The position numbers and the translations under genes were made by a program. This document shows positions 7,207-34,022 of a stretch of DNA of 64,000 nucleotides, one piece after another (within the stretch, counting starts at the first letter, position 1; every line of letters begins with the position of its first letter). This stretch comes from Oceanospirillaceae bacterium ASP10-02a. Its GTDB lineage: Bacteria > Pseudomonadota > Gammaproteobacteria > Pseudomonadales > Balneatricaceae. The stretch lies in assembly GCA_905182035.1 (NCBI GenBank), contig CAJIZL010000005.1, forward strand, positions 1 through 64,000. Reading direction: 5' to 3'. Under the pieces are notes generated by a model. It searched no databases and was not told where the DNA came from. It worked only from the letters and a program-made list of their open reading frames with translations.

Positions 7207-8841
7207 GTGACGCAAAAAAACATACTTTTCATCATGTTAGATCAACTGCGAGCCGACGCCTTGTCTTGTTATGGTAACGGTGTGGTGGATACACCTAATA
7301 TAGATCGTTTGGCACAGAAAGGTGTGAAATTTAACCGCTGTTATGTACAAGGTACCAGCTGTGGTAATTCCCGTGCCTCCTATTATACGGGCCGGCATGT
7401 GCGCTCCCACGGTGCAACTTGGAATGGTTGGCCGAACAGGGTTGATGAGTTGACCCTGGCAGATCATCTTGCAGCTTGTGGCATGAACACCTATTTGATG
7501 GGTAAAACCCACATGAAGCCAGATTTGGCCGGTATGCGACGCCTAGGTCTTGACCCAAAATCGGAGTTAGGGCGGTTTTTAAGCAATGCAGGATTCAGTC
7601 AAGGTGAGCATGATGACGGTCTGCACACCTTGGGTGTGGCAGGCGGCTACGGTAGTGGCACACCGGCTTATTTCGACTACCTGCGCGAGCAGGGGTATGC
7701 AGCACAAAATCCTTGGGCTACTTGGGCTAACGCCATGCAGGATGAAAATGGGGTGCTGCGTAATGGCATGTTTTTAAAACATGGACATTTGCCAACAAGG
7801 GTGGATAGCGCCCATTCAGAAACGGCCTACACCACTGAACGTGCCATTGAAATGATGCAACACATGGGGCAGCAGAACTGGTGTTTACATGTGTCTTATA
7901 TAAAACCTCATTGGCCTTTGGCAGCCCCAGCGCCTTATCATCAAATGTACCGCGATGTGGACTTACCACAAGCGAGTAAGTGCGAGGCCCAAAAACACAA
8001 CGCCCATCCCATTTATCAAGCCTTTATGGCGTTGCCACAAAGCCAAACCTATGCACAAGATGAGTATCGCAATCATGCTTTACCCACCTATTATGGTTTA
8101 GTGAAGGAAATTGATGACAATTTAGGCCGTCTGTTTGCTAGTTTAGAGCAACAAGGCCAAAACAAAAATACCATGATCGTGTTGACGTCGGATCATGGTG
8201 ACTTCTTTGGTGACCACTGGTTAGCAGAAAAAGATCTATTCCATGACGTGGTGACCCGCGTGCCTTTGCTTATTATGGACCCTAGCCCCGCTGCTAATAT
8301 GAGCCGTGGCACAGAGTGTGATCAATTAGTTTGCGCAATTGATCTAGTGCCAACCTTTGTTGATTGGGCCGGTGGTGAGCCCCAGTGGCATTGGTTAGAG
8401 GGTCAATCATTGGTGCCTGTGCTGCATAAAACTGTGGCCATTGACCGAGATTTTGTGGTGTCAGAATGTGACTATGGTGCTATGGATTTTGCTAAACAGT
8501 TAGGCCGTACTAGCAACAACTCCCGCATGACTATGTTGTACGATGGGCGTTATAAATATGTTCATTGCTTGGGTTTTAAACCCATGTTATTTGACTTGCA
8601 AGAAGACCCACAGGAGTTTTCTGACTTGGGTAGGGATGATGGTTATACTGCTGTTCGTGGGCAACTCAGCGAGCAGATGTTAGATTGGTCAGCTGGATTA
8701 AAAAATCGTGTGACCGTGAGTCAGGAAGCCTTCGGCCAGCGTTTAGGCAAGGCTGGGCAGGTGGGTATTTTAATTGGTTATTGGCAACAAGAAGATGTGC
8801 CTCAGGCTCTGCAATTGGAACCAGAAGTTTCGCCCATATGA
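7207..8841 (+). CDS. Sulfatase / phosphonate-monoester-hydrolase-type alkaline phosphatase superfamily enzyme
   Basis: This 544-residue protein starts at GTG 7207 with AAGGGG upstream. Metal ligands are visible in MLDQLRAD (D12) and TSDHGDFFGDHW (near residue 330). The nucleophile region is GTSCGNSRASYYTGR with C52 and R56. Sulfatases need C/S-x-P/A-x-R for formylglycine formation; here the third position is Asn (CGNSR), so maturation may differ. No signal peptide is seen, so it is probably cytoplasmic. It overlaps the following isomerase gene by 4 bp (ATGA), implying a joint pathway, perhaps desulfation then isomerisation of a sugar. Confidence 0.88.
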   Translation: MTQKNILFIMLDQLRADALSCYGNGVVDTPNIDRLAQKGVKFNRCYVQGTSCGNSRASYYTGRHVRSHGATWNGWPNRVDELTLADHLAACGMNTYLMGKTHMKPDLAGMRRLGLDPKSELGRFLSNAGFSQGEHDDGLHTLGVAGGYGSGTPAYFDYLREQGYAAQNPWATWANAMQDENGVLRNGMFLKHGHLPTRVDSAHSETAYTTERAIEMMQHMGQQNWCLHVSYIKPHWPLAAPAPYHQMYRDVDLPQASKCEAQKHNAHPIYQAFMALPQSQTYAQDEYRNHALPTYYGLVKEIDDNLGRLFASLEQQGQNKNTMIVLTSDHGDFFGDHWLAEKDLFHDVVTRVPLLIMDPSPAANMSRGTECDQLVCAIDLVPTFVDWAGGEPQWHWLEGQSLVPVLHKTVAIDRDFVVSECDYGAMDFAKQLGRTSNNSRMTMLYDGRYKYVHCLGFKPMLFDLQEDPQEFSDLGRDDGYTAVRGQLSEQMLDWSAGLKNRVTVSQEAFGQRLGKAGQVGILIGYWQQEDVPQALQLEPEVSPI

Positions 8842-10174: not shown

Positions 10175-11506
10175 ATGCCAAGTAACCTTTCTGTCCGGCA
10201 GTTTTTATTAGATATTAGCTTTGACACTTTGCCATCAGCAGTCATTGAACAGGCAAAAGTTTGCTGTTATGACCTGCTTGGTGCGGCGGTAGGTGGCGGT
10301 CGTTCAGCCCCAGCATCCATCATTACCCGTCATGCGCAAGATCATTTTGCCGCAGGAGCCAACATTACTGCAGTTCAACCATTACTAGGTGGTGAAAGTA
10401 TAAGCCCTGTGGGGGCTGCCTTGGTGGGCGCAACTATGATTGACGCGTTAGATTGTCACGATGGACAGCGAGAAGTCAAAGGGCATATAGGTTGTAGCAT
10501 GCTGCCTAGCCTCATCGCTGTGCTAGAGTCCCAGTTGCGACCCGTGACGGGTCGTGAGCTAATTAGTTTGATTGTTGCTGGTTATGAAATAGGCACCCGG
10601 GCGGGGTTGGCATTGCATGGAACAGTGACTGATTATCATACTTCTGGTGCCTGGGGCGCGGTTAACTGTGCCGCATTAACGGCCCATGTTTTGGGTCTTA
10701 ATGAAGAACAATTCAATCATGCTGTGGGTATAGCTGAATATCATGGGCCACGCAGCCAGATGATGCGGAATATTGACCATCCTACAATGCTGAAGGATGG
10801 TTCTGGCTGGGGTGCTATGGCGGGCACCTCGGCGGCATATATGGCAGCTGAAGGCTTTACTGGGGCACCTGCCATTACTATTACTGCTGATGATGCAGCT
10901 GCCTATTGGCAGGATTTGGGCCAAAACTGGCAAATCCTTAATCAATATTTTAAACCTTACCCTGTATGCCGTTGGGCTCAACCAGCCGTTGCGGCTTGCT
11001 TAACGTTGCGCCTGAAGCATAATTTTGATCCGAGTCAGGTAGAGCAAATTACAGTGTGGACCTTTCATGAGGGCGCGCGATTATTTAGTGATGTGCCTAG
11101 TGATTCAGAGCAAGCTCAGTATGCCATCAGTTTTCCAATAGCCATGGCTGTTCTAAAAGGTGCTATTAGCGCTGACGATGTTTACAGCGGCTTTAACGAT
11201 GCCCAGGTACGAGACATGATTGGCAAAGTCACGTTAATGGAAGGTGCGGATTATAATGAGGTGTTTCCAGCTGAGCGCTGGGCCCATGCGCGTATACGTA
11301 TGGCTGACGGTACAGAAATGGTATCAGAGCCTCATGAAGCCTTAGGCGACCCTCATAAGCCTATGAGCAAAGAGCAATTTCAGGACAAGTACATTAACTT
11401 ATGTGAACCCGTGTGGGGCCTGCAAAAATCACAACAGGTGTTAGCCTATATTGAACATTTGGAAAAGGGTGATTTAGCTGGCTTGTTGGCCTTAATTCGC
11501 AGCTAA
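10175..11506 (+). CDS. MmgE/PrpD family protein
   Basis: This 443-residue protein starts at ATG 10175 with AAGGAG upstream. It shows the family hallmarks: the N-terminal helical domain (YDLLGAAVGG), DCHDGQREVKGHIGCSMLPSLIAV, KPYPVCRWAQPAVAA, and the C-terminal lid domain (VWTFHEGARLF, FPIAMAVLKG). Members include 2-methylcitrate dehydratase, cis-aconitate decarboxylase and a number of uncharacterised dehydratases or isomerases. The promoter module is shared with the mttB operon, so it probably acts in the same catabolic pathway. The last 4 bases overlap the convergent ABC ATPase gene. Confidence 0.88.
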   Translation: MPSNLSVRQFLLDISFDTLPSAVIEQAKVCCYDLLGAAVGGGRSAPASIITRHAQDHFAAGANITAVQPLLGGESISPVGAALVGATMIDALDCHDGQREVKGHIGCSMLPSLIAVLESQLRPVTGRELISLIVAGYEIGTRAGLALHGTVTDYHTSGAWGAVNCAALTAHVLGLNEEQFNHAVGIAEYHGPRSQMMRNIDHPTMLKDGSGWGAMAGTSAAYMAAEGFTGAPAITITADDAAAYWQDLGQNWQILNQYFKPYPVCRWAQPAVAACLTLRLKHNFDPSQVEQITVWTFHEGARLFSDVPSDSEQAQYAISFPIAMAVLKGAISADDVYSGFNDAQVRDMIGKVTLMEGADYNEVFPAERWAHARIRMADGTEMVSEPHEALGDPHKPMSKEQFQDKYINLCEPVWGLQKSQQVLAYIEHLEKGDLAGLLALIRS

Positions 11507-13584
11507 TTAGACAGCTGGATGACTGGAATCATAGCGCCTAAGAAGTCGTCCGTTAAATGGCATCTAAGCTCATGACCATCGGCCATTAACTTCATTGCTG
11601 GCAACTCCTTTTCACAAAGGTTATTAGCAACCTGTTGCTTGTGCTGGCAACGAGTTTGGAAAGGGCACCCTGATGGTGGGTTCATGGCCGAAGGAATATC
11701 ACCGTCCAAGACAATGTGTTTACGCTTAATGCTAGTATCAGCAATCGGCACCGCCGATAACAAGGCCTCAGTATAGGGGTGATAAGGAGGACTAAATACT
11801 TGGTCTGTGCTACCCATTTCTACCACATGACCCAAATACATGACCATCACTCTATCAGAGATATAGCGAACGATTGACAGGTCATGACTAATGAACAGCA
11901 TGGTGGTTTTATTTTTTCTTTGCAACTCCATTAACAGATCAGTTACAGCCGCTTGAACGGAAACATCTAACGCAGAAACTGGCTCATCGGCCACCACTAC
12001 TTGAGCGTTGCCAGCAAAGGCACGAGCAATACCCACACGTTGTTTTTGGCCACCAGATAGTTGGCGTGGCTTACGCAGGGCAAATTCTCGAGGCAGTTTG
12101 ACTAAATCTAATAGCCCCAACATTCTTTGCTCGCGGTCCTCCTCGTTGGTGCCAACCCTAAAGACTTCAAGGGCGCGTATGATTTGGCGGCCGACACTCA
12201 TGGATGGGTTAAGGGTATCAAATGGGTTTTGAAATACCATTTGAATGGACGACACAGACTCAACCTCACGGTCATGGATCAAGGTGTTTTGAATGTCCTC
12301 GCCCAGTAAGTTAGCAGTGCCTGCGCTAGCTTCCTCTAAACCCAGTAACACCTTTGCCAGAGTAGACTTGCCACAGCCAGACTCCCCAACAATGGCCAGG
12401 GTTTCTGATTCACGTGCTTCAAAGGAGATGCTCTCGTTGGCCTTAACGACACGCTTTTCCCCGCTACCAAACAAAGCGCTCGCAGCAACTTCATAGTATT
12501 TTTGTAGCTTATCAACCTTAAGCACCACTTCACCTATTTCGGTGGATTGCCTATCTGCAGCTGCTACTGGGGGGTTGAGCCAGTCTATTTGGTTGATTCT
12601 TGCACAGCGTGAGGCGTGGCTATGATCGTCTATCAAAGACAGCATGGAAATCTCATTCTGGCCACATGTTTCAGCATCATAATAATTACACCGAGGGCCA
12701 AAGTTACAGCCATTGGGGCGCTCATGGGGTAACGGGAAGTTACCCGGGATAGTGACCAAAGGACGGGCGTTTTTATCAGCACCGGGCAATGGAATTGAGC
12801 GGAACAAAGCTTGCGTATAGGGATGGCGCATGCGCTCAAATACTTTTTCAATAGGCCCGGCTTCTATAGCCTCACCTGAATACATGACACAAATGTCATT
12901 ACAGGTTTCCAGCACTAAACCAAGATTGTGGGAGATAAATAGCATTGAGGTGCCATACTTCTCACCTAACCCTTTGACTAGGTCAACGATGCCCGCTTCA
13001 ATAGTGACATCCAGCGCAGTGGTAGGTTCATCAAGGATCAGCAACGACGGTTTTGACATCAGCGCCATGGCGATGACAATGCGTTGCTGTTGGCCACCTG
13101 ATAATTGATGTGGGTAACTGTTTAAGATCCGTTCAGGGTCAGACAGTCGAACATCTTCCACCACTTGCATGGCCAGATCCCAGGCCTCTTTGGCAGAGCT
13201 CTGTTGATGGATCATGGGCACTTCCATGAGTTGCTTGCCGACTTTCATGGATGGATTCAAGGAAGCCATGGGTTCTTGATAAATCATGGCAATTTCAGAG
13301 CCACGCAAATGCCGCAGTTCTTCTTCGCTCATTGTGTTGAGCTCTCGGCCCTTAAATTTGATGCTGCCACCAACAATTTTGCCGTTTACTCCAAGGTCTT
13401 GCATCACGCCTAAAGCCACGGTGGATTTGCCGCAGCCAGACTCACCCACAAGACCCATAGCTTGGCCTTGCTCTACCACACAAGAGAAGTCCATCACTGC
13501 AGGAATTTCACCCAATCGAGTAAAGAAACTAATGGACAGGTTGTCTATTTCTAAAATAGGTCCATCGTAATCCCATTGTTGCAT
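11503..13584 (-). CDS. Oligopeptide-type ABC transporter, fused double ATPase
   Basis: This 693-residue protein contains two complete nucleotide-binding domains, equal to DppD and DppF fused. The first has Walker A GESGCGKST near residue 47, signature LSGGQQQR and Walker [13 protein letters not shown]. The second has GESGCGKST near residue 410, LSGGQKQR and VVVADEPVSALD. Each ends with the oligopeptide-family C-terminal extension containing Cys motifs (GCNFGPRCNYYDAETC; GCPFQTRCQH). It is the last gene of the minus-strand importer operon, 12 bp after the permease stop. Confidence 0.94.
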   Translation of the reverse strand: MQQWDYDGPILEIDNLSISFFTRLGEIPAVMDFSCVVEQGQAMGLVGESGCGKSTVALGVMQDLGVNGKIVGGSIKFKGRELNTMSEEELRHLRGSEIAMIYQEPMASLNPSMKVGKQLMEVPMIHQQSSAKEAWDLAMQVVEDVRLSDPERILNSYPHQLSGGQQQRIVIAMALMSKPSLLILDEPTTALDVTIEAGIVDLVKGLGEKYGTSMLFISHNLGLVLETCNDICVMYSGEAIEAGPIEKVFERMRHPYTQALFRSIPLPGADKNARPLVTIPGNFPLPHERPNGCNFGPRCNYYDAETCGQNEISMLSLIDDHSHASRCARINQIDWLNPPVAAADRQSTEIGEVVLKVDKLQKYYEVAASALFGSGEKRVVKANESISFEARESETLAIVGESGCGKSTLAKVLLGLEEASAGTANLLGEDIQNTLIHDREVESVSSIQMVFQNPFDTLNPSMSVGRQIIRALEVFRVGTNEEDREQRMLGLLDLVKLPREFALRKPRQLSGGQKQRVGIARAFAGNAQVVVADEPVSALDVSVQAAVTDLLMELQRKNKTTMLFISHDLSIVRYISDRVMVMYLGHVVEMGSTDQVFSPPYHPYTEALLSAVPIADTSIKRKHIVLDGDIPSAMNPPSGCPFQTRCQHKQQVANNLCEKELPAMKLMADGHELRCHLTDDFLGAMIPVIQLSN

Positions 13585-13596
13585 GATCCTGCTCCC

Positions 13597-14751
13597 TTAG
13601 TCTTTGAGTGACTGTTCGCGCAGGCCATCGGCCAACAGGTTGAGGCCCAGCACTAGCGACATTAATGCTAGGGCAGGAGGAATAGCTAGGTGTGGGTATA
13701 TGGATAAGAGTTTGCGGCCCTCGTTTATGGTCATACCCCAGTCTGGGCTTTCTGGGCTAACGCCTAGCCCAAAGAAACCCAAGGTGCCTAATAAAATAGT
13801 GATGTAGCCGATGCGTAAACAAAAATCCACAATCAAAGGCCCTCGTGCATTAGGTAGAATTTCCCACAACATAATATACCAAGGTCCTTCTCCGCGGGTT
13901 TCGGCTGCCGCTACATAGTCGCGAGTTTTAATGTCCAGAGTTAGGCCCCTGACAATACGAAACACCGTAGGTGAGTTAACAAATACCACTGCAACAAAAA
14001 TATTCAGCAGGTTAGGTTCCATATAAAAAACACCTAATGGATCCATATTAAAAGCCAGACCTGAATAGGCCCAAAAGCCCAATACTAGTGTGATGGCGAC
14101 ATAAATATTACGCTTCACAGGCTGGGTATAAAATCGAGATTGAAATAACACAACAAACAATATAATAGGAAATACGAACAGTACTGCAGCCAAATAAATA
14201 GGTACACCAGTTGAGCGAATTTCTGGTGTGACTAACAAGAAAAATAACAAAATTACTGGGAAGGCTAGCACTAAATTGGACAAGAAAGATAAGATCGTAT
14301 CCAACTTTCCAGATCTATAGCCGGCAGGTAGGCCTAAGGTGATCCCTACCATAAAGGCAAACACAGTAGCCGCTGGGGCAATAGTTAATACAGTGCGGCA
14401 GCCCATTACCACGCGAGAAAATATGTCACGGGCCAGGTTATCACCACCTAACAGGTAGAATGTACCTTCCACACCACGCACAGGAAAACCTATGCCTTTG
14501 TTTTTCATACCAGAAATTTGGGCTAAGGGGTCGTGGGTGATAATTAAATCAGCAAGGATAGCCGTTAATACCCAAAACAACACCAGTAGCAAACCCAAGG
14601 TGCCAACGCGGCTATCAAACAAGTGGCCATATAAGCCTAAGCGTTGTCGATAATAAGCAGAGATACTTAAAATTATGCCCATAGCAACCCATACAGGGAT
14701 TAACTGGGTAAAAATGCCAATGGTGATTTGAAGTGCAGTTAATGCTTCCAT
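13597..14751 (-). CDS. Oligopeptide-type ABC transporter permease (DppC-like)
   Basis: This 384-residue inner-membrane protein is longer than usual DppC (~300). It has an extra N-terminal hydrophobic segment, and a central insertion with hydrophobic stretches (IYLAAVLFVFPIILFVVLF; ITLVLGFWAYSGLAF). The permease loop TRDYVAAAETRGEGPWYIMLWEILPNARGPLIVDF carries the EAA-type motif that contacts the ATPase. It pairs with the permease at 14761 and the fused ATPase at 11503. Confidence 0.92.
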   Translation of the reverse strand: MEALTALQITIGIFTQLIPVWVAMGIILSISAYYRQRLGLYGHLFDSRVGTLGLLLVLFWVLTAILADLIITHDPLAQISGMKNKGIGFPVRGVEGTFYLLGGDNLARDIFSRVVMGCRTVLTIAPAATVFAFMVGITLGLPAGYRSGKLDTILSFLSNLVLAFPVILLFFLLVTPEIRSTGVPIYLAAVLFVFPIILFVVLFQSRFYTQPVKRNIYVAITLVLGFWAYSGLAFNMDPLGVFYMEPNLLNIFVAVVFVNSPTVFRIVRGLTLDIKTRDYVAAAETRGEGPWYIMLWEILPNARGPLIVDFCLRIGYITILLGTLGFFGLGVSPESPDWGMTINEGRKLLSIYPHLAIPPALALMSLVLGLNLLADGLREQSLKD

Positions 14752-14760
14752 CAGCGTGCC

Positions 14761-15801
14761 CTAATTGATACGAATACGTGGATTGAGGAATACATAGCCA
14801 ATATCTGAAATTAACTGTGTGATGAGTACCACGAATACCGCCACCATCGAGCAGGCTAACAAGAGGTCGATATCATTGTTGGACGCAGCCTGAACTAGCA
14901 GCCAGCCAAAACCTTTGTAGTTAAACAAGGTTTCTACAATTACCACGCCAGTAAGTAGCCAAGGGATTTGTAGCATGATCACTGTAAAGGGTGCGATTAA
15001 CGCATTGCGTAAAGCGTGTTTAAGCACGATGTTGCTAAAACTAACACCCTTTAAGCGTGCGGTTCGAATATATTGCGCTGTCATAACTTCAGCCATTGAG
15101 GCGCGAGTCATGCGCGCAATGTAACCCATTCCATAGAAAGCCATGGTCATCACTGGTAAAGTGAAATTGGCAATGGTGATCTCATCCATAGCAGAAGTCG
15201 AAGAGCCTTTAAACCATCTTAAGCCCACTGCTGAACTAGCAAATATCACTACAAAGATAACACCGGAGACATATTCCGGCGTTGCGGTGGTGAGGATAGC
15301 AAAAGTTGATAAGTTCCGATCCGTGCGTGAACCTTCTCGCATACCTGCCAGTACACCAATAATGAGCGCCATAGGCACCATCACTAACATCACAAATAGC
15401 ATTAACCAGCCTGTTAACCCAAGGCGTTTGCTAACTATGCTGGCAACATTGTCTTTAAATACTGTAGACCAACCCATGTCAGCCTGCAACACACCACAAT
15501 AGTTGGCAATGAGATCCACACCGGGTTTTACACAACGACCTAACGTTTTGCCATCTTCTCTGACAAACACAAAACCGGGTGTTACCCCTAACCATTCGCC
15601 ATAACGTACCAGTAGGGGCTGCTTATAACCGCGACTCTCCAGCCATTGTTCAACCTGTACGTCGGACATGCGCATACTGCCCTGAGTCTTGGCTAACTTC
15701 TCTAAATTGGGCTGTAAGTTGGTTAAGAAAAACACCAAAAAGGTTAGGCACAGAGCAGTCAATACCATCATGCCCGTTCGCTTAACAATAAATATCCACA
15801 T
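14761..15801 (-). CDS. Oligopeptide-type ABC transporter permease (DppB-like)
   Basis: This 346-residue permease has the standard N-terminal transmembrane helix followed by a periplasmic loop and about five more helices. The EAA loop is MAEVMTAQYIRTARLKGVSFSNIVLKHALRNALIAPFTV. The first periplasmic loop (LEKLAKTQGSMRMSDVQVEQWLESRGYKQPLLVRYGEW) is the usual DppB/OppB insert. It lies 9 bp before the DppC-like gene and ~100 bp after the substrate-binding protein gene, with a terminator hairpin in between. Confidence 0.93.
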   Translation of the reverse strand: MWIFIVKRTGMMVLTALCLTFLVFFLTNLQPNLEKLAKTQGSMRMSDVQVEQWLESRGYKQPLLVRYGEWLGVTPGFVFVREDGKTLGRCVKPGVDLIANYCGVLQADMGWSTVFKDNVASIVSKRLGLTGWLMLFVMLVMVPMALIIGVLAGMREGSRTDRNLSTFAILTTATPEYVSGVIFVVIFASSAVGLRWFKGSSTSAMDEITIANFTLPVMTMAFYGMGYIARMTRASMAEVMTAQYIRTARLKGVSFSNIVLKHALRNALIAPFTVIMLQIPWLLTGVVIVETLFNYKGFGWLLVQAASNNDIDLLLACSMVAVFVVLITQLISDIGYVFLNPRIRIN

Positions 15802-15833
15802 GTGCAGTCCTGGGATGACTAGGGCAGAGAGGT

Positions 15834-15867
15834 GATAAAAAAGAGCAGGCTACTAGGCCTGCTCTTT
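15834..15867 (-). terminator. Intrinsic terminator between binding protein and permease genes
   Basis: An 11-bp perfect stem AAAGAGCAGGC/GCCTGCTCTTT with a 6-base loop is followed on the minus strand by a run of T. It should partly terminate transcription after the binding-protein gene, giving more binding protein than membrane components. Confidence 0.85.
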
Positions 15868-15880
15868 AGAGAAAATTAGA

Positions 15881-15897
15881 GGGCCACAAAGTGGCCC
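15881..15897 (-). other. GC-rich hairpin just after the binding-protein stop
   Basis: GGGCCAC-AAA-GTGGCCC is a perfect 7-bp stem with a 3-base loop, 11 bp after the stop codon of the binding-protein gene. It probably blocks 3' exonuclease and stabilises the upstream message. Confidence 0.6.
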
Positions 15898-15907
15898 AAG
15901 TGTGGGT

Positions 15908-17560
15908 TTAAGACCACCACATTTTTTCTAGATGAAACTCAAACGCAGGATGCATTTCGGCATTCATTAGGCCTGGCTTGTTATGCCGATATAAAGAACG
16001 CCAATATGGCTGAATAATGACGCCTTCATCTTGCATAATAGCCTCGATCTTGGCCATGATTTTGCGGCGTTCATCGGCGTCAGGAACCGCCATAGCTTGT
16101 GATAACAAACTATCAAACTCTTTATTAGCGAAACCAGCTTCGTTCCAAGCTTCACCACTGCGGTAGGCTAGTGCCAACACCTGCACACCCAAAGGACGTT
16201 GATTCCAGTTGGTGGAGGAGAAGGGGTATTTTACCCAGTCATTCCAGAAGGTAGAACCTGGTAAAATGGTGCGCTTAACCTTAATGCCTGCTTGGCGCAA
16301 TTGGGCGGCCACGGCATCTGTGGTGTTGCGGCGCCAATCGTCGTCGATGGATATAAGCTCATGTTCATAATCCCCCATACCGGCTTCGTCCATGAGCGCT
16401 TTTGCTGCTGCACCATCAACCTTCTGGGCAGGCAAGGCTGCATACTCGGGATGAACTGGGCAAACGTGGTGGTTTTCTGCTGGTGTGCCATGGCCAGAGT
16501 AGCCAAGTTCTAAACATATATTATTGTCAACAGCCATCGCTAAGGCCTGACGTACGCGTTTATCAGCATAGGGCTTAATGCCATCCACTTCAGCCTGCTG
16601 ATTAGGACGGATGACTATAGTAGCTGCCGTCACTGCTGACGTTTTTATCCAACCTAAGTCATCAAACATGCCGATAAATTCACCAGCAACGTCGTAGGTT
16701 ATATCAAATTCATCCGCGTCAGCGCCGGCTACAATAGCACCGTAGTCGGTGCCATAGTCGATCATTTCAATACGGTCAAGGTATGCCCCTTCGCCCCACC
16801 ATGAATGGGACTCATTGCGTACCAACACGGCCTTAACACCCACCTCGAGACTTTCAGGAGAGTATGGGCCAGTACCTATGGCATTGCCTATCATATTATC
16901 ACTGTCATGGCTTGAATGGACAATAGCTGCAGGGTAGTCAGTCATGCCTGGAATAATAGAAATATCTGGAGCCAAAAGATTGAGCTGCACGGTATGGCTA
17001 TCCACCACTTCAATGGCTCCTGCTCGTGCTTTGCCAGTATCGGTATCTATTAAGGAATTCATACGACCAGCCATGGAGTTGCCTTCCACGCTCTTGTCAC
17101 ACCAACCAATCATATTGCGAGCCACGTCATCGGCAGTGAAGGCATCGCCATTATTCCAGGTTACGCCCTTGCGCACGTTAAGTGTGAACACAGTAGCATC
17201 GTTATTGGCTGACCAACTTTCGAGCAATTGGCCTTCCATAGTGCCATCAGTATTAATACGTACCAGGTATTCTAACCAACCACGGCTGAAGTTGGCTATT
17301 TGGGACCAGTCATAGGTGCGTGGGTCTTTCATGGCCCGGACTTCCGTTTGATAACGCAAGGTGCCACCCATTTTAGGCGTGCCGGCCATGGCCATTGGCG
17401 CGACTAAACCAATCATGCTGTATGCCGCAATTGCGCTGGCACCCAAGGCAGAGGCACGTACAAAAAATTCTCGACGTGAAAGTTGGCCTTGTAAGTATTC
17501 ATTTTTATACATGTCAACAACGGGATGCGTTGCTTTATCTATGTCAGTGGACTTCGTCAT
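15908..17560 (-). CDS. Oligopeptide-type ABC substrate-binding protein, Tat-exported
   Basis: I chose ATG 17560 (GGAGAG upstream) over the longer frame, giving 550 residues. The N-terminus carries a twin-arginine signal: SRREFF at residues 28-33, then a long hydrophobic stretch ending APMAMA. The mature protein is SBP_bac_5 type ([54 protein letters not shown]). Oligopeptide-type binding proteins also carry opines, nickel, sugars and quaternary amines, so the ligand is open. The inverted-repeat arm at 17848-17970 lies upstream, linking it to the mttB regulon. Confidence 0.93.
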
Positions 17561-18093
17561 TCTATACTCTCCGGTTGTTATTGTTACGGACGGCAAGGTC
17601 CGGTTTTGTAGTCTAATGCTAGACTTTTTCACAGCTGAATATGATAGTTTAGCCTATTACTCAGAGGCATCAATGCACGGTGGTAGGCTAATCTATAAAT
17701 ACCAGATCTGACTACATTTGGCTCAAACCCATTCGCTTCATTTATTTCTTAGAGCTCACGTACTCTCCAAGTCTCTTCAAGTTCTACAGATCATTTGCAC
17801 CCTTGTCAAATTTGCACACTTACCAAATAAGTATCTATGGCAGCACATTACGGCTTATTAAATTAACCTGAGGCATAATACATAGCCTCTCAAGTAATGG
17901 GTTTATACCATACACGATAGCATTCAAGAGATTACAAACTGGAGACTGAATCGACAATAAGTGGAATTAGCATTTTCATAATGATATCCCATCTTTTTTA
18001 TAATGTACGAAAAATCTACATCCGCCAACAATAACGCCTTGATTAGTCCCTGGTGGATAATAAATAATTTGGTTCTTGCTAAAACTGAGACTT
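17561..18093. other. Intergenic region between importer operon and AraC gene
   Basis: This 533-bp stretch lies upstream of the importer operon and downstream of the regulator gene. It contains the left arm of the inverted repeat (17848-17970) and otherwise no recognisable gene. The distance from the TGTCGAT element to the importer start is ~390 bp, unusually long for a promoter-proximal operator. Confidence 0.6.
17848..17970 (-). repeat. Inverted-repeat arm L: decayed copy of the mttB promoter and start
   Basis: Read on the minus strand, this segment matches 19138-19261 at roughly 85% identity with one gap. It includes TTATTGTCGATTCAGT, TTGAATGCTATCGTGTA, GAGGCTAT, GCCTCAGGT and the sequence around the mttB start, where ATGAGCCGTA reads ATAAGCCGTA. 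It therefore copies promoter, ribosome-binding site and the first codons of mttB with the start codon lost. It could still serve as operator and promoter for the importer operon that it faces. Confidence 0.8.
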
Positions 18094-19083
18094 TCAACCT
18101 CCTAAAGTAGGACTAGGTAATTTGTCTCTTGTACGTTCTTGCCGAGGTGATATTAAAAATTTTGATCGGTAGCATTTTGCCAAATAGGAAGTCGAATTAA
18201 AACCACAGGCGGTAGCAATAGCAAAGGTAGAAAGACTGGTTTGTTGTAAAAGTAGTTGGGCTTTGTTGAGTCTTAAATCTAGGTAATACTGCGCAGGCCT
18301 TAGGCCGAAATGATGTTTAAATAGTCGCTCCAACTGACGCAAAGATAAGTTTGATTTGCTGGCAATCTGTGCTTGAGACATAGGATCTTCAGTGCAGCTC
18401 TGCATTAACTCAATAGCTTTGATTAGCGCTGGGTGATGAATGCTTAATCTAGTTTGGGTAGCCATGCGCTGGTGTGCATGGGCATCACGGATGCTAGGGT
18501 GAATGCATTGCTCTGCCACGTCCTTTGCCAGTTTCAGGCCATGTTGTTGGGTGATGAGTTGGAGCATCATATCAAGCCCTGATAAGCCGCCTGAGCATGT
18601 CATGAAGTGGGTATCCATTTCATACAATTCACCAGTAATATTTAACAAGGGGAACTCTTCCTTAAAACTGTCAATGTTTTCCCAGTGGATGGTGCAGGGG
18701 CTTTGGTTTAGTAATTTGGCTCGAGCCAGCAACAAACTGCCAGTTGACGTAGAGCCTAAGGTGATGGAGAGGCGTGATAAGCGCCTCAACCATCGGCTGA
18801 GGACTGGGTCATCATGGTTTTCTACATCGATGCCTGCTACAACGATCAGGGCATCTAAATCTTCTGTATCTGCCATCTCACGCGTGGCAGCAACGTCTAT
18901 ACCGTTGCTTGCTCTCACCGGTAGGTAGTCTTTGCTGTAAAATGACCACTCATACAAATTACACTTGCTAAGCCGGTTAGCTATTCTCAGCGGCTCAACA
19001 GCAGCTGACATGGAGAGCATGGAGAACTGAGCGATAAGGAAAAATCCAATCTGCGTTGGATTACTGGCGTAGTTTGGTTGCAT
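18094..19083 (-). CDS. GlxA-type AraC-family regulator (GATase-like domain)
   Basis: This 329-residue protein starts at ATG 19083 with AGAGGA upstream. The N-terminal DJ-1/PfpI-like domain (IGFFLIAQFSMLSMSAAVEPLRIANRL; DALIVVAGIDVEN; TGSLLLARAKLLN) senses a ligand in this class. The C-terminal AraC double HTH covers residues ~225-320 (QAQIASKSNLSLRQLERLFKHHFGLRPAQYYLDLRLNKAQLLL; IATACGFNSTSYLAKCYRSKF). Characterised relatives (ArgR, GbdR, CdhR, SouR) respond to arginine, glycine betaine, carnitine and sarcosine. Its gene lies between the two inverted-repeat arms, so it is the obvious activator of both flanking operons. Confidence 0.93.
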   Translation of the reverse strand: MQPNYASNPTQIGFFLIAQFSMLSMSAAVEPLRIANRLSKCNLYEWSFYSKDYLPVRASNGIDVAATREMADTEDLDALIVVAGIDVENHDDPVLSRWLRRLSRLSITLGSTSTGSLLLARAKLLNQSPCTIHWENIDSFKEEFPLLNITGELYEMDTHFMTCSGGLSGLDMMLQLITQQHGLKLAKDVAEQCIHPSIRDAHAHQRMATQTRLSIHHPALIKAIELMQSCTEDPMSQAQIASKSNLSLRQLERLFKHHFGLRPAQYYLDLRLNKAQLLLQQTSLSTFAIATACGFNSTSYLAKCYRSKFLISPRQERTRDKLPSPTLGG

Positions 19084-19137
19084 GTTGAATCCTCTGACAA
19101 GCTTAGGGTATCGGTCAATTTATGTTTATACAACTTT

Positions 19138-19261
19138 TAATTCCGCTTATTGTCGATTTAGTTTCTTTTTTTTAATCTTTTGAATGCTATCGTGTACGGT
19201 ACAAACCCGTTACTAAGAGGCTATTTATTAGGCCTCAGGTGAAATTAATGAGCCGTATTGC
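19138..19261 (+). repeat. Inverted-repeat arm R: mttB promoter, operator and start
   Basis: This contains TTATTGTCGATTTAGT (19148-19163), TTTTGAATGCTATCGTGTA (~19177-19195), a possible -10 GGTACAAA and the AGGTGA ribosome-binding site before ATG 19248. It is repeated inversely at 17848-17970, and its upstream ~74 bp recur in direct orientation at 10037-10110. The two TCG-containing half-sites about 36 bp apart are candidate binding sites for the AraC-type regulator. Confidence 0.78.
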
Positions 19262-20807
19262 TGGTCGCCACCGCAGAGTCAAACAAGAAACAATTAATCC
19301 ATGTGCTATTCCCCAGCTCGAGCGACAGGTAAAACGTAACCGCTTTGCACCTATCGCAGCCTTGGAACCAGAGCAAGTGGAGCTTATCCACCAAGCGTCG
19401 ATGGACATACTTGAACAGTTGGGCATCGAAGTTATGGGTCAAGAAGCTCTAGACTTATTCAAGCAGGCTGGGGCAGACGTTGATGATGCTGGTGTGGTGC
19501 GAATGGATCGCGCGCTGGTAATGGAATGTATCAGCAAAGCGCCTGCGCAATTCACCCTAACCCCACGTAACCCAGACAATGCCTTGGAGATTGGATCCAA
19601 CGTGATCCATTTTGGGTTGACCTCTGGCCCCCCCAACGTGCACGACTGCGTGAATGGTCGCCGCCTTGGTAACTTTGCAGATTATGAGCACATGATCCGC
19701 TTTGGACAGTACTTTAATGTTATCGATTTTTTTGGCAACCAGGCTTTGGCACCAACGGATTTACCACCTAATACTCGGCATCTAGACACCACTTTTGCCA
19801 CTCTAACTCTAGCTGATAAGGTGTTTCTTGCCCAAGGCATTGGTGCAGGCCGTGTCAAAGATGCAGTTGCCATGAACGCAATTGCCAATGGCATGAGCTT
19901 GCAAGAGCTGGCTCAAAATCCCGCTACCATGACCAATATTAATATTAACTCACCACGCAAATTGGATGACAGTATGGCCTATGGTGCTATGCAAATGGCA
20001 AAAATGGGTCAGGCCGTCACCGTTACTCCATTTACCCTCATGGGGGCGATGACACCAACCACCATGGCTGGTGCTTTAGCACAACAAAATGCCGAGGCAT
20101 TGCTGGGCATTGCCTTGGTGCAGTTAACCAAAGCAGGTGCTCCAGTCGTTTATGGTGGTTTTACTTCAAACGTAGATATGCGTTCTGGCGCTCCAGCCTT
20201 TGGCACACCAGAAAATTGCCTAGCCAACATGGCGAGTGGACAAATGGCACGACGATATAACTTGCCTTATCGGACGAGTGCCTGCAACGCCTCTAATGCA
20301 GTGGATGGTCAGGCGGTATATGAAACCCAAATGGCTTTGTGGGGCTCTGTCATGGGTCATGGAAATTTGATTTATCATGCCGCCGGTTGGTTAGAAGGTG
20401 GTTTGGTCGCGTCGTTTGAAAAAATTGTTATGGATTGTGAGATGCTCCAGCACATGGCAGTAATGTTGCAACCCCTAAAAATTGACCGCATAGAAATTGG
20501 TATTGAAGCGATGGATGAAGTGGGGCCTGGTGGGCATTTCTTTGGTTCCAGTCACACCATCGAACGCTATAAAACCGCTTTTTATCAACCCTTTTTGAGC
20601 GACTGGAAAAATCACGAAAGCTGGGTTGAAGCTGGGTCTAAAGATGCTACTATGCGGGCTACAGAAATTTGGCAGAAAATTTTAGCTGAATTCGAACCGC
20701 CAAAACTTGATTTGTCTCGGCGTGAAGAACTTGAAGCCTATGTGGCTAAGCGCAAAGAAGAGCTGGGTAGGGCTGAACCTATGCTGGAACCGATCGAAAT
20801 AGATTAG
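19248..20807 (+). CDS. MttB-superfamily (trimethylamine methyltransferase-like) protein
   Basis: I used ATG 19248 (AGGTGA six bases upstream) rather than GTG 19239; the product is 519 residues. Family features include HQASMDILEQLGIEVMGQEALDLFKQAGADVD, the HFGLTSGPPNVHD segment, GAMTPTTMAGALAQQNAEALLG and MGHGNLIYHAAGWLEGGLVASFEKIVMDCEML. There is no in-frame amber codon, so it is the non-pyrrolysine branch. Characterised members (MtgB, MtpB, MtcB) demethylate glycine betaine, proline betaine and carnitine to a corrinoid protein. No corrinoid protein or reactivase is in the window, so the methyl acceptor is unknown. It leads an operon with the oxygenase and aldolase genes. Confidence 0.92.
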   Translation: MSRIAGRHRRVKQETINPCAIPQLERQVKRNRFAPIAALEPEQVELIHQASMDILEQLGIEVMGQEALDLFKQAGADVDDAGVVRMDRALVMECISKAPAQFTLTPRNPDNALEIGSNVIHFGLTSGPPNVHDCVNGRRLGNFADYEHMIRFGQYFNVIDFFGNQALAPTDLPPNTRHLDTTFATLTLADKVFLAQGIGAGRVKDAVAMNAIANGMSLQELAQNPATMTNININSPRKLDDSMAYGAMQMAKMGQAVTVTPFTLMGAMTPTTMAGALAQQNAEALLGIALVQLTKAGAPVVYGGFTSNVDMRSGAPAFGTPENCLANMASGQMARRYNLPYRTSACNASNAVDGQAVYETQMALWGSVMGHGNLIYHAAGWLEGGLVASFEKIVMDCEMLQHMAVMLQPLKIDRIEIGIEAMDEVGPGGHFFGSSHTIERYKTAFYQPFLSDWKNHESWVEAGSKDATMRATEIWQKILAEFEPPKLDLSRREELEAYVAKRKEELGRAEPMLEPIEID

Positions 20808-20840
20808 CATCGCCTTATATAGACAGTTTTAGGAGTTTTT

Positions 20841-21533
20841 ATGTCGCGCATTACCTCCACTGAAGCAGATGCCAAGCAAATGATAACGTGGCTTGAAAGC
20901 AAGTATGACACTGAGTCGGTTGCCAGTTTTAAGGCTGGCCCAGGTATTCAAAAGTTGCAATTAAAGTTTGATATCGACAAGTTACGCCAGTGTTATCATG
21001 ACATGCAAGATCAACTGGAAGACTTAGGTTCAGGTTTTCATGTAATGGCCCTAACGCGGCGCCCGGGTGTCGAGCACCCCACTCCCGAGGACAACTGCGG
21101 TCGGTTTTGGACTAGAGTGGATGACAGCTATGCTGAAGTCCCTCGAGACATTATGGTTGATGAGTCAGCGTATAGTGAGTTTAATCCACTATTTGCAGAC
21201 ACTTATTTAGCCGAAGTTTATGAGCAGCTTATCGCTCGATTTCCCATTGGTCGTATGAGAGTGTTAGGGAAAGATCCTTATAATTGCAATTCTTGGCATC
21301 GAGATCCAGAGCCGCGTTTGCACATTCCTATTATCAGTAACCCCGGCTCTTTATTTGTCGTCAACCACCATTGCACTCACTTACCTGCCGATGGTTCGGT
21401 TTATTTTACCGATACTCGTGGCTATCACACGGCGTTAAATGGGGGTGAAGAATCTAGAGTACATATTGTGGCAGCGCTACCTTATGCTGGGCAGCAGGTC
21501 AGTGACCTACAAGCGTTAGGAAAACAGGTCTAA
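20841..21533 (+). CDS. Asp/Asn-hydroxylase-like 2-oxoglutarate/Fe(II) oxygenase
   Basis: This 230-residue protein has ATG 20841 preceded by AGGAG. The iron-binding facial triad is visible as H153-x-D155 in NSWHRDPEPRLHIPI and the distal H196 in GYHTALNGG; R206 in ESRVHIV is placed to bind 2-oxoglutarate. The arrangement is that of the aspartyl/asparaginyl beta-hydroxylase group (Asp_Arg_Hydrox). Members hydroxylate the beta carbon of amino acid residues or free amino acids. Position between a methyltransferase and a threonine aldolase suggests it makes a beta-hydroxy-alpha-amino acid for aldol cleavage. The substrate is inferred, not shown. Confidence 0.85.
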   Translation: MSRITSTEADAKQMITWLESKYDTESVASFKAGPGIQKLQLKFDIDKLRQCYHDMQDQLEDLGSGFHVMALTRRPGVEHPTPEDNCGRFWTRVDDSYAEVPRDIMVDESAYSEFNPLFADTYLAEVYEQLIARFPIGRMRVLGKDPYNCNSWHRDPEPRLHIPIISNPGSLFVVNHHCTHLPADGSVYFTDTRGYHTALNGGEESRVHIVAALPYAGQQVSDLQALGKQV

Positions 21534-21536
21534 ATT

Positions 21537-22628
21537 ATGACATCACACTACCCATCGGCAGAAACACGAAGCTCTATCAGCAGTCCGATTACCATTGATC
21601 TGCGCAGTGATACCGTTACGCAGCCCAGCCATGCCATGCGCCAGATTATGGCAGACGCGCAAGTGGGGGATGATGTGTATGGTGATGACCCCAATGTTAA
21701 CGCCCTCGAGCACGAAACTGCCGAGTTATTAGGCAAACAATCGGGCCTATTTTTACCCAGTGGCACTATGAGTAACTTAGCTGGCGTGTTGGCCCATTGC
21801 CAGCGGGGTGAAGAGGTTGTGGTGGGTGATAAATACCATATTAGTTGTGATGAAGCGGCTGGTGTAGCAGTGCTGGGCAGTGTGGCTATGCACGCACTGC
21901 AAACGGATGCATTCGGGCGTTTTGACCTTGAACAACTAAATGCTGCTGTGAAACCAAATGATTACCACTGTCCTATGACGCGGCTACTGTGTCTAGAGAA
22001 CACAGTGGGGGGCTGCATTCAAGATCAAGATCATATTGATGCTTTGGTTGACTGTGCCAAATCACATGGGCTTGCTACACACATGGATGGCGCTAGATTA
22101 CTTAATGCTGCAGTAGCCCAAAATGTGCCTCCAGCTCGGCTAGTTCAGTCTATTGACACAGTATCCTTGTGCTTATCTAAAGGCTTAGGTGTGCCTTTGG
22201 GCTCGGTGTTAGTGGGCCCAAGTATAGTCATTGAAAGAGCACGTAGGCTGCGTAAAATGCTAGGTGGGGGAATGCGTCAAGCAGGTATTATTGCAGCAGC
22301 GGGCAGGTATGCCTTACAGCACAATGTGGAGAGGTTAGCGCAGGATCATAAACGAACACAGGAACTCGCCACAGCACTTGAAGGCCTGCAAGGGTTACAT
22401 TTTGACCGGGCTCGAGTACAAACTAATATGTTGTTTTTGCAATCGCCACAAATGCCCGCCTTAGCCAGTTATCTTGCACAGCGTGGTATTGCCATCACCG
22501 CTATTGGGGAAAGTGCTCGTATTGTTTTGCACATGCAAATCGATGATGCTGCTCTGCAGCAGATTACTGAGGCGATACAAGGTTTTTTTACCACGAGTAA
22601 CTTACCCCAGTATGTAGAGCAGGTGTAG
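21537..22628 (+). CDS. Threonine aldolase-family PLP enzyme
   Basis: This 363-residue protein starts at ATG 21537, three bases after the oxygenase stop. Fold-type I features are LRSDTVTQPSHAM, VGDDVYGDDPNVNALE, LFLPSGTMSNL, the PLP-contacting Asp in HMDGARLLNAA (D184), and the Schiff-base lysine K215 in SLCLSKGLGVPLGS. The family cleaves beta-hydroxy-alpha-amino acids to glycine and an aldehyde; fungal members also cleave 3-hydroxytrimethyllysine in carnitine synthesis. Coupling to a hydroxylase fits the same chemistry used catabolically here. The N-terminal ~18 residues are extra compared with short family members. Confidence 0.93.
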   Translation: MTSHYPSAETRSSISSPITIDLRSDTVTQPSHAMRQIMADAQVGDDVYGDDPNVNALEHETAELLGKQSGLFLPSGTMSNLAGVLAHCQRGEEVVVGDKYHISCDEAAGVAVLGSVAMHALQTDAFGRFDLEQLNAAVKPNDYHCPMTRLLCLENTVGGCIQDQDHIDALVDCAKSHGLATHMDGARLLNAAVAQNVPPARLVQSIDTVSLCLSKGLGVPLGSVLVGPSIVIERARRLRKMLGGGMRQAGIIAAAGRYALQHNVERLAQDHKRTQELATALEGLQGLHFDRARVQTNMLFLQSPQMPALASYLAQRGIAITAIGESARIVLHMQIDDAALQQITEAIQGFFTTSNLPQYVEQV

Positions 22629-32849: not shown

Positions 32850-32858
32850 AAAGATTAG

Positions 32859-32883
32859 CGCTATTTGGGTGGTCCAAATAGTG
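32859..32883 (+). other. Hairpin between tctAB fusion and tctC
   Basis: CTATTTGG (32861-32868) pairs with CCAAATAG (32874-32881) around GTGGT. No T-run follows directly. It may be an mRNA processing or stabilising element that raises TctC levels. Confidence 0.45.
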
Positions 32884-32940
32884 CAGATAAAAAGGCCTCT
32901 CACCTAGGTTGAGTTGGCCACTAATAAAAAGGTAAGTATT

Positions 32941-33915: not shown

Positions 33916-33934
33916 TAACCCTGCAGTGCTTGGT

Positions 33935-33973
33935 GCCACTGCTTAGACGCAGTCTTTGCAGTGGCCCTTTTTT
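33935..33973 (+). terminator. Intrinsic terminator after tctC
   Basis: GCCACTGC (33935-33942) pairs with GCAGTGGC (33958-33965), followed by CCTTTTTT. It separates the transporter genes from the sauS/sauT-like pair, which therefore may need its own promoter. Confidence 0.85.
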
Positions 33974-33990
33974 GCCCCAACTAAAACCAC

Positions 33991-34005
33991 ACCGTTAACA
34001 ACGGT
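33991..34005 (+). promoter_or_regulatory. Palindrome before the acylating aldehyde dehydrogenase gene
   Basis: ACCGTT-AAC-AACGGT is a perfect inverted repeat 17 bp upstream of the ATG at 34023 and just after the tctC terminator. It could be an operator. It is unlike the GntR palindrome at 30786. Confidence 0.4.
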
Positions 34006-34022
34006 TTGATGTGGAGATTTAA

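Follow-up and report, generated by a model that had tools for sequence, protein, structure and literature searches.

What does the tightly packed group of genes for an MttB-superfamily methyltransferase (MttB), a 2-oxoglutarate oxygenase (OXY) and a threonine-aldolase-type lyase (ALD) do in Oceanospirillaceae bacterium ASP10-02a, and how far does the functional unit around it extend? The window analyzed here is a stretch of 64,000 nucleotides (contig CAJIZL010000005.1, positions 1 to 64,000). An earlier note, made from the sequence of the window, treated the interval 19248-22628 as the whole unit. This interval is too short, as it omits an MmgE/PrpD-family gene (MmgE) and a Dpp transporter. 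On balance, we lean slightly toward reading 10175-22628 as a unit for the aerobic catabolism of one imported N-methylated (onium) amino-acid-like compound, for which we infer the reactions, their order and the substrate. The relevant features are as follows.

7207..8841, + strand: sulfatase / phosphonate-monoester-hydrolase-like enzyme (PF00884; nearest PDB entry 4upi, 1e-170)
10175..11506, + strand: MmgE, MmgE/PrpD-family protein, the most constant genomic partner of OXY (PF03972, PF19305)
11503..13584, - strand: Dpp/Opp-type ABC importer, fused ATP-binding subunits, DppD-DppF (two ABC_tran plus oligo_HPY)
13597..14751, - strand: Dpp/Opp-type permease, DppC (PF00528)
14761..15801, - strand: Dpp/Opp-type permease, DppB (PF00528)
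15908..17632, - strand: solute-binding protein, family 5, DppA-like (PF00496, 9e-54)
18094..19083, - strand: GlxA-type AraC-family regulator, GbdR-like (HTH_18, DJ-1_PfpI)
19248..20807 (ATG; alternative GTG start 19239), + strand: MttB, MttB-superfamily corrinoid-dependent methyltransferase without pyrrolysine (PF06253)
20841..21533, + strand: OXY, Fe(II)/2-oxoglutarate oxygenase, Cpz10-like, Asp/Asn-hydroxylase fold (sequence, residues, predicted structure)
21537..22628, + strand: ALD, PLP-dependent threonine-aldolase-type lyase with K215 (NF041359, LtaE model, PDB match)

Family assignments of the encoded proteins

MttB, OXY and ALD lie on the same strand with intergenic gaps of 33 bp and 3 bp. 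Relative to L014, L016 and L053, the third codon position is the one that differs most often and the frames contain no internal stops, as expected for genes under purifying selection, and the tight packing described earlier thus involves real, intact genes.

OXY has no Pfam or NCBIfam match at E 0.001. With E up to 1 it matches the Asp/Asn beta-hydroxylase family PF05118 at 16.7 bits, under the gathering cut-off of 22.6, and 15/15 members of the OXY family match the same model at this threshold, the best with 3.5e-6. The nearest solved structure is Cpz10, at about 30% identity (phmmer 3e-22; Foldseek 3.5e-12, using a structure model of mean pLDDT 72 as query), and AlkB-family N-demethylases come next in the fold search, with E of about 5e-5. 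Residues H153, D155, H196 and R206, from which an Asp/Asn-hydroxylase-like 2OG oxygenase had been proposed, are invariant in all 15 OXY sequences and constitute an HxD...H iron site and a 2OG arginine; they align with the iron ligands H115, D117 and H160 and with R170 of Cpz10, as described in PMC9814697. The same source presents Cpz10 as the caprazamycin beta-hydroxylase, whose target is the beta carbon of an alpha-amino acid. A TMLH/BBOX-type assignment was rejected because a TauD-family (PF02668) domain match is absent, in agreement with the earlier note.

The threonine aldolase assignment of ALD was likewise upheld. The protein matches Beta_elim_lyase (4e-94), is a member of the GntG family by NF041359 (422.6 bits, cut-off 230), exceeds the LtaE model cut-off (354 bits against 312), and matches an L-allo-threonine aldolase in the PDB (2e-101). 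K215, which we take to be the PLP lysine from the conserved SKG motif, is invariant in 10 aldolases.

MttB belongs to its superfamily by a match to PF06253 over residues 12-510 (647.7 bits, cut-off 25; 1e-194). It was rejected as a pyrrolysine trimethylamine methyltransferase (TIGR02369, 303 bits against a cut-off of 525; the frame is open, with no internal stop). It was also rejected as the glycine betaine methyltransferase MtgB: of the pocket residues predicted by docking (Y94, N199, R309, H345, F/Y353; PMC6855144), N, R and H are kept, but Y94 is replaced by S and F353 by G, in a comparison whose numbering was shifted by one to fit and whose reference residues are themselves predictions. 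Among 12 aligned close homologs, the Y94 position is S or A and the F353 position is G; the S. meliloti protein 4yyc keeps the pocket Y, and G is also present. The genome encodes four MttB paralogs. In the phylogeny obtained, MttB groups with a protein from G190 (92/98), and the tree gives no firm placement relative to Acidimicrobiia proteins.

Genes for MtgC-like, MtgD-like, MetF-like and RamA-like proteins and FolD are grouped at C12 in the same genome. The domains of these proteins (B12-binding/B12-binding_2, Pterin_bind, a RACo/AcsV-like activase) indicate a corrinoid methyl-transfer system, in which the MetF-like protein scores below the MTHFR cut-off, and the set resembles the core of aerobic marine MttB-type demethylation as described in PMC12478193. 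For the regulator, GbdR, a choline/betaine regulator, is by far the best model (315 bits), below the equivalog cut-off of 480. An N-methylated substrate, as the earlier note had implied, is therefore likely, considering the quaternary-amine family of MttB, the corrinoid partners and the GbdR-like neighbor.

MmgE exceeds the cut-offs (32.1 each) of PF03972 (6e-36, 124 bits) and PF19305 (1e-28, 101 bits). Its nearest PDB entries are B. subtilis IRG1 (6e-14) and IDS-epimerase (1e-9), and profile A2 matches IRG1 (8e-31), IDS-epimerase (3e-29) and 2-methylcitrate dehydratase (1e-12). The superfamily includes 2-methylcitrate dehydratase, cis-aconitate decarboxylase and iminodisuccinate epimerase. 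Identity with the first of these (PrpD) was rejected at 20.5 bits against an equivalog cut-off of 575 (NF006943, the only named equivalog matched). MmgE represents a distinct subfamily tied to OXY and MttB. The DppA-like protein has only distant PDB relatives, the best at 2e-18.

Conservation of the gene set across genomes

OXY and ALD are adjacent in all seven OXY-bearing genomes of the window's genus, and the pair is still adjacent in L052 and L053, at 57-61% identity and with different flanks. In the DNA examined around OXY outside the genus, ALD adjoins it in none of 15 OXY genomes. A whole-genome search, which covered 12 of these 15 (G981, G1023 and G1035 lay outside it), recovered a threonine aldolase homolog elsewhere, at 39-51%, in all of the 12 except G381; in G373 and G383, roughly 7 kb separate the unlinked homolog from homologs of MtgC and MtgD.

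Of the genomes examined, many of them incomplete MAGs in which absences are soft, 18 of the 22 with OXY have MmgE, as does 1 of the 16 without OXY. Within the genus the proportions are 7/7 and 1/8 (Fisher p 0.0014), and within Acidimicrobiia 10/14 and 0/8 (p 0.0017), the eight controls being those that scored best among the 18 other genomes in which MttB had a match; these Fisher values ignore shared ancestry, and 11 of the genomes were picked for having OXY. In G981 and G1023, the OXY and MmgE genes touch or overlap.

A close MttB homolog, meaning one that reaches about 590 bits or more, or is split, occurs in 9 of 14 OXY-positive Acidimicrobiia (54-62% identity). Among 292 OXY-negative class-sample genomes there is none at 590 bits (p 3e-14), a cut-off chosen after the scores were seen, and there are four at 550 bits (p 2e-11); for the random sample alone the corresponding values are 0.014 and 0.066. 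MttB proteins at 51-53% and 550-570 bits are encoded by the OXY-negative Acidimicrobiia G902, G1053, G992 and G984. No close homolog was found in 6 of the 22 OXY genomes, and within the genus, where 3 of 8 OXY-negative genomes also have one, the association is not significant (p 0.12). Because OXY-negative genomes carry homologs scoring just under the cut-off, we slightly lowered our estimate that MttB acts in the same pathway as OXY and ALD, which we still consider probable.

In terms of gene order, the ORFs of MmgE and MttB share 4 bp in G190 (L043), are neighbors in G374, G376, G378 and G379, and have a regulator-like ORF between them in G380 and G382. Dpp genes are kept beside the unit in L015/L054, L016, L017, L052 and L053, and DppC is 11-24 bp upstream of OXY in L023-L025. 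An ortholog of the sulfatase-like gene adjoins OXY in L015/L054, and L053 has a different enzyme, a choline-sulfatase that scores above cut-off, between the Dpp genes and OXY; the enzyme at 7207..8841 is at most a candidate accessory. Synteny in L017 and L054 extends to genes downstream of the unit (RR, HK and a sugar-type SBP).

The trio named in the earlier note is found together in 4 of 22 OXY genomes (the window, L014, L016 and L017), all of one genus, so its expected conservation held only in part: OXY, MmgE and a close MttB homolog do recur across two phyla. Since ALD adjoins OXY in one genus only, MttB is separable and MmgE is the most constant partner, the trio is not the unit, and co-occurrence and conserved neighborhood place MmgE and the importer beside it. 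OXY, ALD, MmgE and Dpp very probably belong to one pathway.

Predicted pathway and competing explanations

In the scheme that we propose, the Dpp/Opp-type importer would bring in an onium amino-acid-like compound, OXY would hydroxylate the carbon beta to an alpha-amino acid center, and ALD would split the resulting beta-hydroxy amino acid, releasing glycine and an aldehyde. MttB would take one methyl off a quaternary nitrogen, of either the substrate or a product, and hand it to MtgC, the shared corrinoid protein; from there the methyl would pass via MtgD to tetrahydrofolate, where the MetF-like protein and FolD could oxidize it. MmgE may perform a carbanion-type step on an intermediate (dehydration, epimerization or decarboxylation); that it has no obvious step here counts against the scheme. 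It is plausible that an imported onium amino acid is beta-hydroxylated and cleaved in this way and loses a methyl group to a B12-dependent enzyme. The stable OXY-ALD pair in the genus and the Cpz10 precedent support the hydroxylate-then-split logic of the earlier note, but outside the genus ALD is not beside OXY in the DNA examined; we think it rather likely that the two enzymes act in sequence. Whether the whole amounts to an unreported aerobic route in Pseudomonadota and Acidimicrobiia, uniting a Cpz10-type OXY, a dedicated glycine-releasing aldolase, B12-dependent MttB and an unprecedented step by a novel MmgE/PrpD subfamily, is doubtful, though conceivable. The substrate of that route would be trimethyllysine-like or a 3-amino-3-carboxypropyl onium.

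The genes might instead form two modules, with OXY, ALD, MmgE and Dpp serving an amino acid or peptide that is not methylated, and MttB together with the GlxA regulator being an independent betaine demethylase. In G393 (L054), MttB and its regulator are indeed separated from OXY by about 11 kb, on the far side of the Dpp genes; MttB is on another contig than OXY in G397, no close homolog was found in G387, three genus genomes have MttB without OXY, and L052 keeps OXY-ALD-MmgE-Dpp without MttB. This division is nevertheless unlikely given that MttB and MmgE also stand side by side in another family and in another phylum and that the MttB homolog is enriched in OXY genomes.

We consider it quite unlikely that OXY is an N-demethylase that removes, as formaldehyde, the methyls left after MttB takes the first from an alpha-N-trimethyl (betaine) amino acid, with ALD cleaving the free beta-hydroxy amino acid. 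Cpz10, the sole strong homolog of OXY, hydroxylates carbon, and family scans of some genes and inspection by eye recognized no formaldehyde-processing gene beside OXY in the window's genus. Such an order would meet the need of ALD for a free alpha-amine and would suit the AlkB-family fold matches, and in L019 a zinc alcohol dehydrogenase, of a superfamily that includes formaldehyde dehydrogenases, lies between OXY and an MttB paralog.

Catabolism of trimethyllysine, favored by the earlier note, or of laminine is one of many candidates and appears improbable; no observation points to trimethyllysine in particular. Here OXY would yield 3-hydroxytrimethyllysine, ALD glycine and trimethylaminobutyraldehyde, and an aldehyde dehydrogenase gamma-butyrobetaine, to be demethylated by an MtyB-like MttB. 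The OXY-ALD pairing and the retained N, R and H pocket residues fit this route, as do the reports that E. coli threonine aldolase cuts hydroxytrimethyllysine (PMC11016064) and that MtyB, of the MttB superfamily, demethylates gamma-butyrobetaine (PMC8604678). However, a rough motif scan, run alongside a positive control, recognized no aldehyde dehydrogenase among the ORFs around OXY, MmgE is left without a role, OXY is not of the TauD/BBOX type, and carnitine biosynthesis is described in PMC8085414 as unobserved in prokaryotes. The scan's one match at an OXY locus, in L028, was judged by eye to be a short-chain dehydrogenase, and a truncated aldehyde dehydrogenase was seen by eye 3.4 kb past ALD in L014.

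That a generic threonine aldolase lies by chance among unrelated genes of a streamlined genome, as the commonness of such aldolases and the likewise syntenic downstream genes might suggest, is largely refuted and highly improbable, since OXY and ALD stay together where identity is down to about 60% and the flanks differ.

Comparison with known systems

Carnitine biosynthesis (TMLH and HTML aldolase) has the same order of chemistry, with beta-hydroxylation preceding an aldol cleavage that yields glycine and an aldehyde, whereas the window has another oxygenase family, MmgE and Dpp, and no aldehyde dehydrogenase recognized nearby. In the guanitoxin route, GntD hydroxylates before GntG. ALD scores above the GntG cut-off of NF041359, a subfamily-level model and not proof of function; GntG performs a retro-aldol step within a multi-enzyme route (PMC10367076). 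Opp-like ABC import of a betaine has a precedent in Prb, a proline betaine importer of Sinorhizobium cited in PMC11337228. Cpz10 is nearest to OXY in sequence and fold and shares its iron ligands and 2OG arginine, but serves antibiotic biosynthesis (PMC9814697), whereas OXY would act in catabolism.

The gene set probably feeds on one methylated compound from seawater. Marine bacteria are reported to have "multiple (up to seven)" MttB-type genes (PMC12478193), often several without assigned substrates, and the OXY-ALD-MmgE-importer set offers a testable handle on one of them, which bears on the link between dissolved organic nitrogen and B12 demand in the ocean. With MtgBCD glycine betaine demethylation in aerobic marine bacteria, as described in that source, the genome shares an MttB-family protein with several paralogs and one corrinoid core with MtgD-like, MetF-like and RamA-like genes. 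The window MttB differs in having Ser and Gly for the aromatic Y94 and F353 of the glycine betaine enzyme, and it is found with OXY, ALD and MmgE, whereas MtgBCD is found with dimethylglycine/sarcosine demethylases.

Three packed genes and the distribution of the oxygenase

The earlier note had described three co-directional, packed genes, and the same spans and gaps were recovered here (33 bp between MttB and OXY, 3 bp between OXY and ALD). These genes and two further features of the window are as follows.

MttB: 19239 or 19248-20807, same direction as OXY and ALD; corrinoid-dependent methyltransferase, PF06253 (Pfam/NCBIfam)
OXY: 20841-21533, same direction as MttB and ALD; Cpz10-like Fe(II)/2-oxoglutarate oxygenase of 230 residues, with no curated family above cut-off
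ALD: 21537-22628, same direction as MttB and OXY; threonine-aldolase-type PLP lyase, GntG/low-specificity threonine-aldolase group (Pfam/NCBIfam)
MmgE: 10175-11506; MmgE/PrpD-family protein
Dpp: 11503-17632; Dpp/Opp-type ABC importer

Codon-position differences between the window genes and loci L014, L016 and L053 peak at the third position, and promoter and terminator scans gave signals at background level. The Fe and 2-oxoglutarate residues that the note had named in OXY are invariant among the homologues compared. The nearest solved relative of OXY is Cpz10, which also came first in a structure search with a model (mean pLDDT 72, pTM 0.75) that drew on 15 homologues; AlkB-type structures and proline cis-4-hydroxylase followed, with Asp/Asn-hydroxylase lower.

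The OXY homologues with 87-95% identity belong to MAGs of Oceanospirillaceae or Pseudomonadales, which places the window in a gammaproteobacterium of this group; judging from the MAG names, the carrier organism is probably pelagic marine. In the class sample, 9 of 369 genomes had an OXY match, which was full-length only in the source genome of the window (a 2.09 Mb assembly, 89% complete) and in genome G190 (65%); the remaining seven matches were short (61-106 residues) with 28-36% identity. Only the source genome passed 1e-20 in the phylum sample (1/398), and the OXY threshold was passed in 4 of 296 genomes from the class of G374, which is that of the Acidimicrobiia carriers. A scan of the genome collection returned 15 loci, four from Oceanospirillaceae/Pseudomonadales and 11 from Acidimicrobiia or Actinomycetota MAGs, all 11 being called Acidimicrobiia below. 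OXY occurs in 7 of the 15 genomes of the window's genus, four of the seven being those of loci L014-L017. The resulting set of 22 OXY genomes comprises these seven, G190, the 11 Acidimicrobiia of the collection scan, and three further carriers from the G374 class sample (G981, G1023 and G1035). Some overlapping genes (OXY in L067, MmgE in L044, ALD in L058) were placed by tblastn.

Genomic neighborhood of the oxygenase

Within the genus, ALD adjoins OXY and MmgE is present in all seven OXY-bearing genomes, and a Dpp/Opp-type importer lies on the contig of OXY in six of them, none being seen at the L014 locus. At L053 the genes DppA-B-C-DF, choline-sulfatase, OXY and ALD follow one another in the same direction, and a betaine-type ABC ATPase precedes them; at L054 the genes run MttB, regulator, Dpp, a second oxygenase-like ORF, MmgE, ALD and OXY. 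MttB adjoins OXY in four of the seven genomes, lies 11 kb away in G393 (the genome of L054) and on a different contig in G397 (67%), and a close homologue was not found in G387 (best match 47%; genome 87% complete). A strict operon of the three genes is ruled out by this separability of MttB. The catabolic operon of methyltransferase, oxygenase and aldolase proposed in the earlier note was half right; it overlooked MmgE, the hub gene, and the Dpp importer. The unit in the window exceeds the three genes, since the genus-constant neighbors of OXY are ALD, MmgE and, mostly, the Dpp importer.

Outside the genus, in G190, the ORFs of MmgE and MttB (67%) overlap by 4 bp with a GlxA-type regulator adjacent, and OXY is on a separate contig without the other unit genes. 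A close MttB homologue (54-56%) is present in 9 of the 14 Acidimicrobiia OXY genomes (9/11 from the collection scan, 0/3 for G981, G1023 and G1035), that of G377 being fragmented (47% and 62%). MmgE is present in 10 of these 14 genomes versus none of eight OXY-negative Acidimicrobiia, chosen as the best-scoring MttB carriers of the G374 class sample. It adjoins MttB in G374, G376, G378 and G379, is separated from it by a regulator-like ORF in G380 and G382, and in G981 and G1023 directly adjoins or overlaps OXY. At L023, L024 and L025, the gap between DppC and the downstream OXY is 11-24 bp.

ALD was not found near OXY in any of the 15 genomes outside the genus within the available sequence, which at L026 and L027 extends only a short way in one direction. 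Unlinked ALD homologues (39-51%) occur in 11 of 12 such genomes searched, and OXY, MmgE and MttB were not found in the stretches around six of them (L055-L060). Two Acidimicrobiia homologues lie about 7 kb from homologues of MtgC and MtgD, a corrinoid protein and its methyltransferase partner (L055, G373:C24; L056, G383:C101), and MttB paralogues (35-36%) lie 11-13 kb from ALD homologues on the same contigs in G373, G376 and G383, the distance being 11-12 kb in G373 and G383. Opp-type genes are found about 5-8 kb from the homologue in G377 (L059), and a GlxA-type regulator about 2 kb from that in G190 (L060).

Overall, MmgE is present in 18 of the 22 OXY genomes versus one of 16 OXY-negative genomes (eight from the genus, eight Acidimicrobiia), where incomplete assemblies can hide genes (three of the genus genomes are 67-83% complete); a close MttB homologue is present in 16 of the 22. 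In Fisher tests, which ignore common descent, the association of MmgE with OXY gave p 0.0014 in the genus and 0.0017 in Acidimicrobiia, and that of MttB with OXY gave 0.12 in the genus (not significant), 3e-14 (590 bits) or 2e-11 (550 bits) in Acidimicrobiia with selected OXY genomes, and 0.014 (590 bits) or 0.066 (550 bits) in the random Acidimicrobiia sample alone. The MttB cut-off matters because, in the G374 class sample, one of 296 genomes reaches at least 590 bits, itself an OXY carrier, and four OXY-negative genomes, included in the eight above, fall just below (51-53%, 550-570 bits).

Several other neighbors were observed. The second oxygenase-like ORF, seen in one genome between MmgE and the Dpp genes (L015 9375-10373, the same region as L054 12447-13445), encodes a protein of 332 residues that by eye may contain an HxD...H oxygenase motif; it had no Pfam match and no PDB match up to E 0.1. 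Also in one genome, an arginine-deiminase-superfamily protein (L014 4471-5346, PF02274; dimethylarginine-hydrolase-like by eye) and an amino-acid-type ABC system lie just upstream of MmgE and the three genes. Window positions 30903-36985 likely encode a sulfoacetate pathway, with a SauS-type acylating sulfoacetaldehyde dehydrogenase (NF047625, 700 vs 600 bits), a CoA ligase and, by eye, an apparent tripartite tricarboxylate-type transporter. In G190 (L034), a gene that by eye resembles kynureninase lies close to OXY; it was set aside because two ORFs intervene and the two genes form no operon.

MttB homologues and the corrinoid module

In the MttB phylogeny, the window protein groups with that of G190 (support 92/98), and the Acidimicrobiia sequences form a separate group. 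The tree, which has some long branches, does not settle how these two groups and a paralogue on contig C3 of the source genome are joined, and we therefore refer to close homologues rather than proven orthologues. Three more MttB paralogues are encoded in the source genome (L031, L032 and L033, on C18, C3 and C11); those of L032 and L033 adjoin sarcosine-oxidase/GcvT-like proteins, and that of L031 has amino-acid-oxidase-like, aldehyde dehydrogenase and DapA-like genes nearby.

The same genome contains the following feature.

Corrinoid module: 6346-15244 of L035 (C12:76000-95900); compact aerobic corrinoid methyl-transfer module

Its order is FolD (by eye), MtgC-like corrinoid protein, DUF1638, a small ORF, MetF-like, MtgD-like (Pterin_bind), RamA/AcsV-like activase, another protein and a GlxA-type regulator (by eye). 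Given these genes together on C12, it appears that MttB can function in this genome. In the source assembly (89% complete), PF02607 matched only the corrinoid protein of this module, so a MetH-type domain was not detected.

Proposed chemistry and substrate

Cpz10 is described as acting on the aminobutanoic acid moiety of its substrate, which it hydroxylates at the beta carbon (PMC9814697). Because of this activity, and because ALD lies directly downstream of OXY, the best reading for the genus is that OXY would hydroxylate a beta carbon, after which aldol cleavage by ALD would release glycine together with an aldehyde. Threonine-aldolase-type enzymes require a free alpha-amine, and therefore the methylated nitrogen would sit in the side chain, as the earlier note had also argued. 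Enzymes of the MmgE superfamily abstract protons next to carboxylates, which hints at a dicarboxylate-like intermediate; MmgE as a true PrpD, IRG1 or IDS-epimerase was set aside, the similarity being only distant.

The note had favored trimethyllysine, and the E. coli threonine aldolase is indeed described as active on 3-hydroxytrimethyllysine (PMC11016064). This substrate is nevertheless not singled out by any of our data, since MmgE, the most constant partner of OXY, has no role in that route and no aldehyde dehydrogenase was recognized near OXY in a loose-motif scan of picked ORFs, a crude method that would miss truncated genes (the positive control in L031 was detected; ORFs in L028, L035 and L058 were taken as chance matches). 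The likelihood of glycine betaine as the MttB substrate is lowered by the pocket residues: of the betaine pocket predicted by docking, not from a ligand-bound structure (PMC6855144), the window MttB keeps N, R and H, but has S and G in place of two aromatic residues, and this points to a different and perhaps larger substrate. In the window, sulfatases are found near the unit; they also occur next to it at L015/L054 and L053 (6519-8021, a choline-sulfatase co-directional between the Dpp genes and OXY; TIGR03417, 594 vs 433 bits cut-off), and 9.5 kb from MttB at L047, but a sulfated substrate was set aside because the window/L015 and L053 types belong to different subfamilies.

Among titles and the beginnings of abstracts, we found no description in print of the gene combination. 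The unit in the window is a conserved, putative catabolic unit in which known families occur in a new combination.
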